From positions 248,001 through 312,000 of the forward strand of contig NZ_CP114065.1 in the NCBI RefSeq assembly GCF_027627575.1: a stretch of 64,000 nucleotides of DNA, read 5' to 3'. A program made the translations under genes and the position numbers. Positions within the stretch are counted from its first letter, which is position 1; each line of letters starts with the position of its first letter. Source of the stretch: Kribbella sp. CA-293567 (GTDB taxonomy: Bacteria; Actinomycetota; Actinomycetes; Propionibacteriales; Kribbellaceae). Shown piece after piece: positions 3,442 to 29,573 of this stretch. The notes beneath the pieces were generated by a model. That model saw only the letters and a list, made by a program, of their open reading frames with translations, ran no database searches and was not told the origin of the DNA.

Positions 3442-4835
3442 GTATCGCTTCGACGTCCGTCATCCAGATCATCCCGCGCAGCCGGCGCGGGGTGGAGCTG
3501 ATGCTGCTGATCGTGGCGATCGGCGTCTCGGTCGGTGCCTACGTCAACATCGGCCTGACCGTCCAGAACAGGGTCCCGGCCAGCACCGGGTACTACGCGG
3601 CCGGCATCGGCCTGCTCGCGTTGATCGCCCACCTCGCGCTGCGCTACCGGGCGCCGTACGCCGATCCCGTCCTGCTGCCGTGCGCGGTGCTGCTGAACGG
3701 CCTCGGCGTCGCGATGATCCACCGGATCGACCTCGGCCTGGCCGCGACCAGGATCGCCAAGGGGCAGGCCCCCAAGGCGGCCGCCGCGCCGCAGCAGATC
3801 ACCTGGACGGCGGTGGGGGTGATCTTGTTCCTGCTCGTCATCCTGCTGATCAGGGACCACCGTCGGCTGCAGGCACTGACCTACACCGCCGGCCTGGCCG
3901 GTCTGGTGCTGCTGGTGCTGCCGCTGGTCCCGGGCCTCGGCGTCGACCTGAACGGCGCCCGGATCTGGATCCGGCTGGCCGGGATGTCGTTCCAGCCCGG
4001 TGAGTTCGCGAAACTCTGCCTGGTCGTCTTCTTCGCCGGTTACCTGGTGCTGAAACGTGACGTCCTGACGCTGGCCGGGCACCGGTTCCTCGGGCTCGAC
4101 CTGCCCCGCGCTCGCGACCTCGGGCCGATCGGCATCGCCTGGGCGGTCAGCCTGGGCGTGCTGGTCTTCGAGAAGGACCTCGGCTCCTCGCTGCTGTTCT
4201 TCGGGCTCTTCCTGTTCCTGCTGTACGTCGCGACCGAGCGGGCCGGCTGGCTGATCATCGGTGGCCTGCTGTTCGCCGGCGGCGCGTTCTTCGCCTCCCA
4301 GACCTTCGGCCACGTGCAGCGGCGCGTGGACGGCTGGCTGGACCCGTTCGCCGAGGACCGTGGCCAGGTCGCGACCGGTCTGATGGGTCAGGCCTGGGGC
4401 GGCATCCTGGGCCGGGGCCTCGGTCAGGGCCGGCCGGACCTCACCCTCTACGGGCAGAGCGACTTCATCATCTCCTCGTTCGGCGAGGAGCTCGGCCTGA
4501 CCGGGGTGATCGCGATCATCCTGGTCTACACCCTGATCATCGAGCGCGGCCTGCGCACGGCGCTGGGCTGCCGGGACGTCTTCGGCAAGCTGATCGCGAC
4601 CGGCCTGGCGATGTCGTTCGCGCTGCAGGTGTTCGTGATCATCGGCGGCGTCACCGGCCTGATCCCGTTGACCGGTCTGGTCACGCCGTTCATGGCGCTC
4701 GGTGGCACCTCGCTGGTCGCCAACTGGGCGATCGTGGCGCTGCTGCTGCGGATCAGTGACCAGGCCCGGCGGCCGCAGACCCCTGCGGCCCCGGTCTCCG
4801 ACGAGACGATCGCGATGGCGGTGCAGAAGGCATGA
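3438..4835 (+). CDS. rodA: RodA/FtsW/SpoVE-family peptidoglycan glycosyltransferase
   Basis: An integral membrane SEDS protein that polymerises lipid II into glycan strands together with a class B penicillin-binding protein. The 465-residue protein is hydrophobic throughout, with about ten to twelve membrane segments. SEDS motifs are visible: WIRLAGMSFQPGEFAKL (about 176-193), the KDLGSSLLF segment and GQGRPDLTLYGQSDFIIS (about 333-350). It shares ATGA overlaps with pstP upstream and pbpA downstream, so RodA and its partner transpeptidase are made from adjacent coupled cistrons. Position in the pknB cluster supports RodA rather than divisome FtsW. Confidence 0.93.
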   Translation: MSIASTSVIQIIPRSRRGVELMLLIVAIGVSVGAYVNIGLTVQNRVPASTGYYAAGIGLLALIAHLALRYRAPYADPVLLPCAVLLNGLGVAMIHRIDLGLAATRIAKGQAPKAAAAPQQITWTAVGVILFLLVILLIRDHRRLQALTYTAGLAGLVLLVLPLVPGLGVDLNGARIWIRLAGMSFQPGEFAKLCLVVFFAGYLVLKRDVLTLAGHRFLGLDLPRARDLGPIGIAWAVSLGVLVFEKDLGSSLLFFGLFLFLLYVATERAGWLIIGGLLFAGGAFFASQTFGHVQRRVDGWLDPFAEDRGQVATGLMGQAWGGILGRGLGQGRPDLTLYGQSDFIISSFGEELGLTGVIAIILVYTLIIERGLRTALGCRDVFGKLIATGLAMSFALQVFVIIGGVTGLIPLTGLVTPFMALGGTSLVANWAIVALLLRISDQARRPQTPAAPVSDETIAMAVQKA

Positions 4836-27743: not shown

Positions 27744-27826
27744 ACCGTCCACGGTAGAATCTGACATCCATGTGAGGTTCAACCCCGACCCATGTGACCT
27801 GCCTCACTACACCCCCCGGAGGATGC

Positions 27827-28183
27827 GTGAAGATCGGCGAACTGGCACGACGTACGGGCGTCAGCGTGCGGTCACTGCGCTACTACGAAGAACAAGGCCT
27901 GATCACCTCCGAGCGCACTTCAGGCGGGCAACGCGTCTACTCGAAAACAACCGTCGGCTACGTCGACTTGATCCAGCTACTGTTCCGCGCGGGCGTCAGC
28001 AGCCGCGACGTCCTGGCGATCATGCCCTGCGCGGAATCCGGCACGACGACACCCGCGATGCTCGACCGGCTCGCCGCCGAACGATCCCGCCTCGACGCCA
28101 AGGTCACCGAACTGATCGCAACCCGCGAACGCCTCGACGGCATCCTCGTCGCGGCTACTGCGCGCTTGCGTATGCCCGCGTAA
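27827..28183 (+). CDS. MerR family transcriptional regulator
   Basis: A small regulator (118 residues) with an N-terminal winged helix (KIGELARRTGVSVRSLRYYE, GGQRVYSKTTVGYVDLIQLL) and a short coiled coil (AAERSRLDAKVTELIATRER). It has no long effector domain. The start is GTG 27827 with GGAGG upstream. CCATGTGA is repeated in the divergent promoter region. It most likely controls the neighbouring SDR gene. The dispersed repeat array begins 40 bases after its stop. Confidence 0.9.
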   Translation: MKIGELARRTGVSVRSLRYYEEQGLITSERTSGGQRVYSKTTVGYVDLIQLLFRAGVSSRDVLAIMPCAESGTTTPAMLDRLAAERSRLDAKVTELIATRERLDGILVAATARLRMPA

Positions 28184-28222
28184 GCGGCGGCTGTATTGCG
28201 GGGTTGTTGCTTCTGCTTTCAG

Positions 28223-28964
28223 CGATGCGGGCGGCGGGGTTGGAGCGCAGCAGCCGTCGCGAGCCCCACACCGAGTTCGCGCGCAGCCCGCGTACCCCGC
28301 GAGCGAACCTGCACCACTCGGGTTCACGCGCGCAGCGCCAAACCTCACGCTGCGATGCAGGCGGCGGAGCGAAGCGCAGCAGCCGTCGCGAGCCCGCGCG
28401 CGCAAACTCCAGCACCGCCGATTCGCCCGCAGCACCACCCATCACCCCGGCGATGCAGCCGGCGTAACGAAGTGGAGCAGGCGCCGCGAGCCCACCCAGC
28501 ACGTACCTGCACACTCGGGTTCGTGCGCGCGGCGCCAAACCTCACGCTGCGATGCAGGCGGCGAAGCGAAGCGGAGCAGCCGTCGCGAGCCACCTCAGCT
28601 CCGCCGCGGGTTTGCGCGCGCAGCCCCATCACGCTGCGATGCAGGCAGCGGAGCGAAGCGCAGCAGCCGTCGCGAGCCCCACACCGAGTTCGTGCGCAGC
28701 GCCAGCACCCGCCCTGCGATGCAGGCGGCGGAGCGAAGCGGAGCAGCCGTCGCGAGCCCGCGTACCCCGCGAGCGAACCTGCACCACGCGGGTTCACGCG
28801 CGCAGCGCCAGACCTCACGCTGCGATGCAGGCGGCGGAGCGAAGCGGAGCAGCCGTCGCGAGCCCGGGCGCACGCGAAGCTCCAGCACTGCGGGTCCGCG
28901 CGGAGCGCCAGCACTCGCCTACGATGCAGCCGGCGTAACGAAGTGGAGCGGGCGCCGCGAGCCC
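28223..28964. repeat. Array of eight dispersed 43-bp repeats
   Basis: Copies start at 28223, 28353, 28451, 28550, 28637, 28717, 28823 and 28922, spaced 80-130 bases. The common unit begins CGATGCAGGCGGCG, passes through GAGCGAAGCG and AGCAGCCGTCGCGAGCC. Copies 3 and 8 form a second type (CGATGCAGCCGGCGTAACG, with GGCGCCGCGAGCCC); copy 1 is diverged. Spacers are also partly repeated: GAGCGAACCTGCACCAC after copies 1 and 6, and CACACCGAGTTCG after copies 1 and 5. Five copies contain GCGAAGC, a sequence known for forming very stable DNA mini-hairpins. Long open frames cross the array on both strands but read as low-complexity Arg/Ala peptides. The 894-base stretch 28184-29077 holds no recognisable gene. 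Confidence 0.85.
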
Positions 28965-29077
28965 ACCCACCGACCAACCAGCACAGCATTGTCGGCCGGG
29001 GATCCGGCAACTAGAGTCGGCCTGCCGGCTGGGGGACCGCCAGGTTCACGGCGATCGACGCTTCGAAAGGTGTTGTC

Positions 29078-29573
29078 ATGCGCATCTCCCCGGGCTTTCT
29101 GAGGTCCAGGCTGGTCAAGAGTGTCACCGGGTTGGCGGTGGTCGCGACGATGGTTGCCGGGGGCGCGCAACCGGCGGCGGCCGACGCCAGCGTGCCGTAT
29201 CTGCGGACGGACCCGACGGCGTACCCGAGCGGGTACGGGGTCGCGCGGGCCGGTTCGGTGAAGTTCTTCAGCACTCAGCGCGCTTCCTACTACTTCGAGG
29301 GTGCACGACGAGTGCGCCGGTGACGGGCAGGGGGACGGGTTCGTCGCGATGATCCGCGGGCGCGCGATCCGTGGCGACGGGACCGTGACCGCCTGGTCTG
29401 AGTGGGAGGGCGACAACAGCGGTTGCGCGGACAACGCCGGGATGATCGCACTGCACAGCTGGGATATGCCGAACCGCCGCATCCTTCGCGTCGAGATCCA
29501 GTTCTGCCTGCGCAAGCCCAGCGGCACGGTGACCGGGTGCGTCCAGCCGTCCTGGCGCAACCAGTACATCTAG
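29078..29573 (+). pseudogene. Secreted protein gene interrupted by a frameshift
   Basis: The first frame (29078-29323) encodes a signal peptide (SVTGLAVVATMVAGGAQPAAA) and a mature start ASVPYLRTDPTAYPSGYGVA, ending soon after RASYYFEG. The second frame continues from about 29300 with HDECAGDGQGDGFVAMIRGR and ends CVQPSWRNQYI at 29573. Removing one G from GGG at about 29298-29300 would join them into one protein of about 165 residues with several Cys. No homologue is recognised. It may be a natural pseudogene, a strain mutation or a base-calling error. Confidence 0.7.

Follow-up and report, generated by a model that had tools for sequence, protein, structure and literature searches.

Evidence for a REP-like extragenic hairpin family limited to one branch of Kribbella

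Why should a gene-free stretch of actinomycete DNA carry eight copies of one short sequence, and what kind of element do these copies represent? In the window (the whole stretch of 64,000 nucleotides from Kribbella sp. CA-293567 that was analysed), positions 28222-28963 hold eight copies of a unit of about 43 nt and no gene. The array and its immediate context are composed as follows:

27794-28183, plus strand: MerR-family regulator gene (context; PF00376, PF13411), stop codon 38 bp before the array
28222-28265, plus strand: unit copy 1, decayed, with a 1-nt insertion and the loop lost
28352-28394, plus strand: unit copy 2, type 1, hairpin core 28360-28384
28450-28492, plus strand: unit copy 3, type 2, X=C, Y=G, inner stem AC/GT, core 28458-28482
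28549-28591, plus strand: unit copy 4, type 1
28636-28678, plus strand: unit copy 5, type 1
28716-28758, plus strand: unit copy 6, type 1, inside a 57-bp segment missing from the other block (see below)
28822-28864, plus strand: unit copy 7, type 1
28921-28963, plus strand: unit copy 8, type 2
29078-29573, plus strand: a pair of overlapping ORFs following the array (context), without a Pfam match

Successive copies start 130, 98, 99, 87, 80, 106 and 99 bp apart. A sequence-only reading had reported eight 43-bp repeats at distances of 80-130 bp, and this description stands: seven of the eight copies lie within 8 mismatches in 43 of the consensus GCGATGCAGXCGGCGNAGCGNAGCGNAGCAGYCGTCGCGAGCC (copy 1 is the decayed one) and beat all 20 shuffles of the window, in which the best match had 15 mismatches. 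The earlier reading had set copies 3 and 8 apart from the rest, and they do constitute a sub-type. The mini-hairpin core proposed earlier, GCGAAGC, is present in five of the eight copies (2, 4, 5, 6 and 7), is replaced by ACGAAGT in copies 3 and 8, and is found in neither form in copy 1; the full palindrome is longer and interrupted, with this core as its tip. An assembly artefact, also raised as a possible source of the units, is very unlikely, since they occur in independent assemblies of other species.

The array grew in part through duplication of a larger block, as the earlier reading had supposed from its partly shared spacers. Self-comparison gives a dominant offset of 470 bp and confirms that spacers are shared in patches, and two blocks align save for one unit-sized gap of 57 bp:

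28244-28494, plus strand: block A of the duplicated segment, aligning with 28657-28965
28657-28965, plus strand: block B of the duplicated segment, aligning with 28244-28494

The 57-bp segment is found only in block B. Its junctions share AGC, so that loss by microhomology and gain of a unit are both possible.

Could the stretch be what is left of a repeat-protein gene or of a CRISPR-like array? Long open frames traverse it on both strands, as a gene remnant might. Their codon-position GC is, however, flat at 0.72/0.72/0.74 (compared with 0.65/0.54/0.78 in the neighbouring MerR gene), the reading frame is not maintained between copies and the ORFs have no Pfam match, which bears out the earlier view that no convincing gene lies here. 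A CRISPR, already denied by that reading, would combine regular repeats with unique spacers, but here the spacing varies between 80 and 130 bp and the spacers are themselves repeated through block duplication. A remnant of either kind is refuted by the spacer duplication and the frame data and is scarcely conceivable. The array region has no match in Rfam, and six related loci gave a single sub-threshold microRNA match, which lies outside the arrays. Further downstream, ORFs 29078-29323 and 29301-29573 (plus strand, different frames) possibly encode a single small secreted protein, with a frameshift separating its two parts; the start of the former is signal-peptide-like and the latter resembles its continuation.

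What had been missed is that the unit belongs to a dispersed family common to four Kribbella genomes. This emerged from the genome-wide search that had been proposed, in which copies were collected by DNA search and with a sequence-only model (R2), so that structure was not favoured; copies of the family lie at extragenic sites. The window's own genome (G000; 7.61 Mb, one contig) has 18 copies at E<0.001, distributed over four sites (198 kb, the window, 4.05 Mb and 4.99 Mb). Among 38 Kribbella genomes, four carry the unit, namely G000 with 18, G034 with 19, G047 with 5 and G048 with 3 copies, and it is absent from the other 34. Searches of 28 other genera of the order (198-genome sample, stricter filters) and of plasmids, phages and viral contigs did not find it. 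An exact-pattern scan of 84,980 species had matches in just two, Kribbella catacumbae DSM 19601 and an entry under the name Streptomyces sp. SID13031, which correspond to the Kribbella carriers G034 and G047. The family is limited to one branch of Kribbella. In a tree of three adjacent proteins the carriers group with the non-carriers G031 and G041; G031 is placed inside the carrier group with a support of only about 0.80, and either a loss of the unit there or an unresolved branch is possible.

A hairpin constraint on the unit is well supported. The written strand folds as GXC-g-GC-GNA-GC-GNA-GC-GNA-GC-a-GYC, with a GXC/GYC stem, a G.A mismatch, GC/GC, a GNA/GNA internal loop, GC/GC and a GNA triloop, GCGAAGC being the tip. 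The highest mutual information of all column pairs is that of X:Y, unit positions 10 and 32, which read C-G in 19, G-C in 7 and T-G in 3 copies (n=32). Changes on both sides also occur at 18:24 (G-C to A-T) and at 11:31 (C-G to A-T and to T-A), and the three pairs nest within one hairpin. RNAalifold, unaided, returns the same hairpin with three two-sided pairs from the 32 ungapped cores, and no structure from the gap-rich set of all 55 matches, many of which are truncated. Paired cells reach 98% compared with 88.5% after shuffling, and the covariation score is 0.262 against 0.100, with 0 of 500 shuffles as high. Pair counts exceed those of 500 shuffles and of all slid registers, the copies counted being related to each other; because copies within one array are related, we count no more than about four independent two-sided changes. 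An outer pairing, GCGA/TCGC, was rejected, with no two-sided change and 8 A.C or otherwise unpaired cells. In the GNA modules the G and the A are as conserved as the stem pairs and the middle base is free, a pattern that we take to fit purine mismatches and a GNA triloop.

The strand that keeps this fold, as RNA or ssDNA, is the unit strand. Its stems hold 20 G.T against 5 A.C wobbles (17 against 3 when each site is counted once), and this excess, found in stems only, identifies the unit strand as the folding one. Stems have 17 C>T and 5 G>A changes and unpaired positions 4 and 12, so that the C>T excess is confined to stems (Fisher p=0.0026, an approximate value because stems and unpaired positions differ in base composition). 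The minimum-energy RNA fold of the isolated core is the proposed hairpin (-7.6 kcal/mol), and the type-1 core folds as RNA 2 kcal/mol better than the opposite strand; by total folding energy, neither the units nor the whole array do better than shuffles. These data bear on two other readings. The unit might be a double-stranded palindromic binding site, arrayed for a nucleoid protein, gyrase or a regulator. Symmetric X:Y changes are also expected of a palindromic operator, and the array spacing is roughly regular at 80-130 bp. However, such a site does not predict the 20:5 bias in the stems, and its half-sites would be broken by GNA positions that lack symmetry and in which G and A are conserved like the pairs, making this a very improbable explanation. 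Decaying, functionless duplicated DNA, in which apparent covariation is inherited from few ancestral variants, would account for truncated copies, for 5-bp length changes of the GCGNA module and for the block duplications. We nevertheless hold it to be quite unlikely, given the two-sided changes at three pairs, one of them in two versions, at separate loci and in separate species, and the confinement of the wobble bias to stems. Of the earlier guesses, a source of structured RNA (or folded ssDNA) ranks ahead of a simple protein-binding array and of passive decay, given the covariation and the strand specificity of the G.T wobbles.

Which known repeats does such a family resemble? Mycobacterial interspersed repetitive units (MIRU) are broadly similar, being likewise actinobacterial and intergenic, with short arrays in which each unit measures a few tens of bp. 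The tip of most units, GC-GNA-GC, resembles the d(GCGAAGC)-type DNA mini-hairpin, which is a physical-chemistry motif and not a repeat family; hairpins of this kind serve to stabilise DNA aptamers (PMC4686876). As short, dispersed, imperfect palindromes the units are bacterial extragenic palindromic repeats in the broad sense. The GTAG-tagged, RAYT-associated REP/BIME elements are dispersed outside genes, mostly behind gene ends, in clusters or head-to-head; they are short and imperfectly palindromic, and have internal mismatches and G.T pairs in their stems (PMC3733652, PMC8266576). The Kribbella units share the imperfect palindrome, the extragenic position behind genes, the clustered or head-to-head arrangement and the G.T pairs. 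They differ in that TGCA, and not the GTAG of GTAG REP/BIME, precedes the core in most copies, that the stem consists of 3+2+2 pairs split by purine mismatches, and that a genome holds only 3-19 copies. CGTC repeats carry an unpaired tag, their stem of 8-9 pairs begins with A-T pairs and encloses a loop of 4-5, and they were described from five phyla, Actinobacteria not among them (Di Nocera et al. 2013, PMC3733652); this main survey of REP-like repeats that we found lists mostly Proteobacteria. Like CGTC repeats, the Kribbella units are extragenic palindromes near gene 3' ends that lack a dedicated transposase. Their stem, in contrast, is interrupted and G-C-rich (3+2+2 pairs) with a GNA triloop. 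The hairpin is followed by CGTC, the first C of which also closes the stem. The Y1 transposase (PF01797, RAYT) has one match in the 38 genomes, in a non-carrier, and none in carriers; for present genomes, spread driven by RAYTs was therefore rejected. By the criteria that PMC3733652 and PMC8266576 set out, these repeats are REP-like yet form neither a GTAG nor a CGTC family. The best reading is that of new, clade-restricted REP-like extragenic palindromes without GTAG/CGTC tag or Y1 (RAYT-type) transposase, and that we are dealing with a REP-like hairpin family is very probable. A family so restricted, in a high-GC actinomycete and under base-pair constraint without the usual transposase, offers a small recent system for repeat origin and spread, which the empty and filled gene gaps of sister species make directly testable.

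The position of the units bears on their possible role. By our own gene calls, supported by Pfam, the copies fall in gaps that hold no recognisable gene, usually close behind the end of a gene and at most sites within 150 bp downstream of a stop codon; exceptions are L069, which is a divergent NACHT/MFS gap, L062, L068 and part of L057. Copies within 150 bp behind a stop are antisense to the nearer gene in 11 of 13 cases and sense in 2 (p=0.02; a hand tally in which convergent pairs were scored by the nearer gene). Against this trend, the array in the window is oriented sense behind MerR. Single loci hold both orientations, which is why orientation by replication strand was rejected; head-to-head and solitary copies occur elsewhere. 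No terminator or promoter consensus was found. A GCGCC[AG] box lies within 60 nt upstream in 23 of 48 copies (7 expected by shuffling), a lead only, since arrays share descent.

The best explanation of the array as a whole, which we consider reasonably probable, is a cluster of REP-like extragenic palindromes that belongs to this Kribbella-branch family and folds on the unit strand. On this reading the units cluster behind gene ends, in gaps free of genes, and increase in number there via block duplication, having arrived, presumably, through a non-RAYT route. Because the folded strand under constraint lies behind gene ends, structured RNA at the 3' boundary is suggested. The fold would act mainly in RNA read off the unit strand, where the units may form a structured non-coding block at the gene 3' boundary and possibly damp read-through from the neighbouring gene; the commonest orientation would place the folding strand in transcripts coming from the opposite side. 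This RNA-level role at the 3' boundary is tentative, and we doubt it somewhat more than we trust it.

Alternatively, the hairpin could act as ssDNA, the unit being a non-autonomous mobile element (REPIN/MITE-like) recognised by a putative recombinase, with 3' gaps as tolerated landing sites. The dispersal of the copies and their head-to-head arrangements agree with this, and DNA mini-hairpins are known to accommodate G.A mismatches and purine-rich GNA loops well. Moreover, the infA/MTES_1575 gap holds a unit in the carrier G047 and none in the window's genome, where it measures about 55 bp with only a terminator-like hairpin. Yet no carrier has a Y1/IS200-type transposase, neither a target duplication nor a constant element end was seen, copies per genome are few, and filled and empty gaps differ by large segments, not by single units. 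Such an element is unlikely, if less so than a binding site or mere decay.

Gene gaps of this kind, such as those at whiB/PLDc_N, infA/MTES_1575 and gltD, turn over fast. The convergent whiB/PLDc_N gap measures 687, 1893, 1970 and 3465 bp in the four carriers against 16-268 bp in 26 non-carrier relatives; in carriers it has outward-facing units, and three of the four have extra genes in it. So strong an enlargement would fit a recombination hotspot, one of the roles that the earlier reading had proposed. One could speculate that the units are a new class of self-spreading extragenic hairpin, a one-strand, purine-mismatched GNA hairpin moved by a non-Y1 enzyme, whose outward-facing pairs open convergent gaps and admit new genes, as at whiB/PLDc_N; this is a long shot. 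Behind gltD, only G047 has a unit among the genomes compared, and others have other repeats or hairpins.

Several observations on these gaps stand on their own. In the window's genome the whiB/PLDc_N gap (L071, 5500-8430) holds a sigma-factor-like and an alpha/beta-hydrolase-like gene, missing there in 29 relatives. The same gap in the non-carrier G041 (L106) has a different tandem repeat of the CGCGCCGACATCGCC type. Another short intergenic repeat, GGAAACTTTTCGTCG..GGTGCAAGTT, is confined to G034, G047 and G048 among the 38 genomes (L064 at about 3838-3880, L067 at about 3962-4000, G034 C80, G047 C47 and other G048 sites), with one copy between head-to-head hairpin units at whiB/PLDc_N in G047 and G048. 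Behind gltD, tandem repeats of the GGGTAACCCACCCGTACC type are found in the window's genome (L132, G000, near C1:4509163) and a long near-perfect hairpin in G034.
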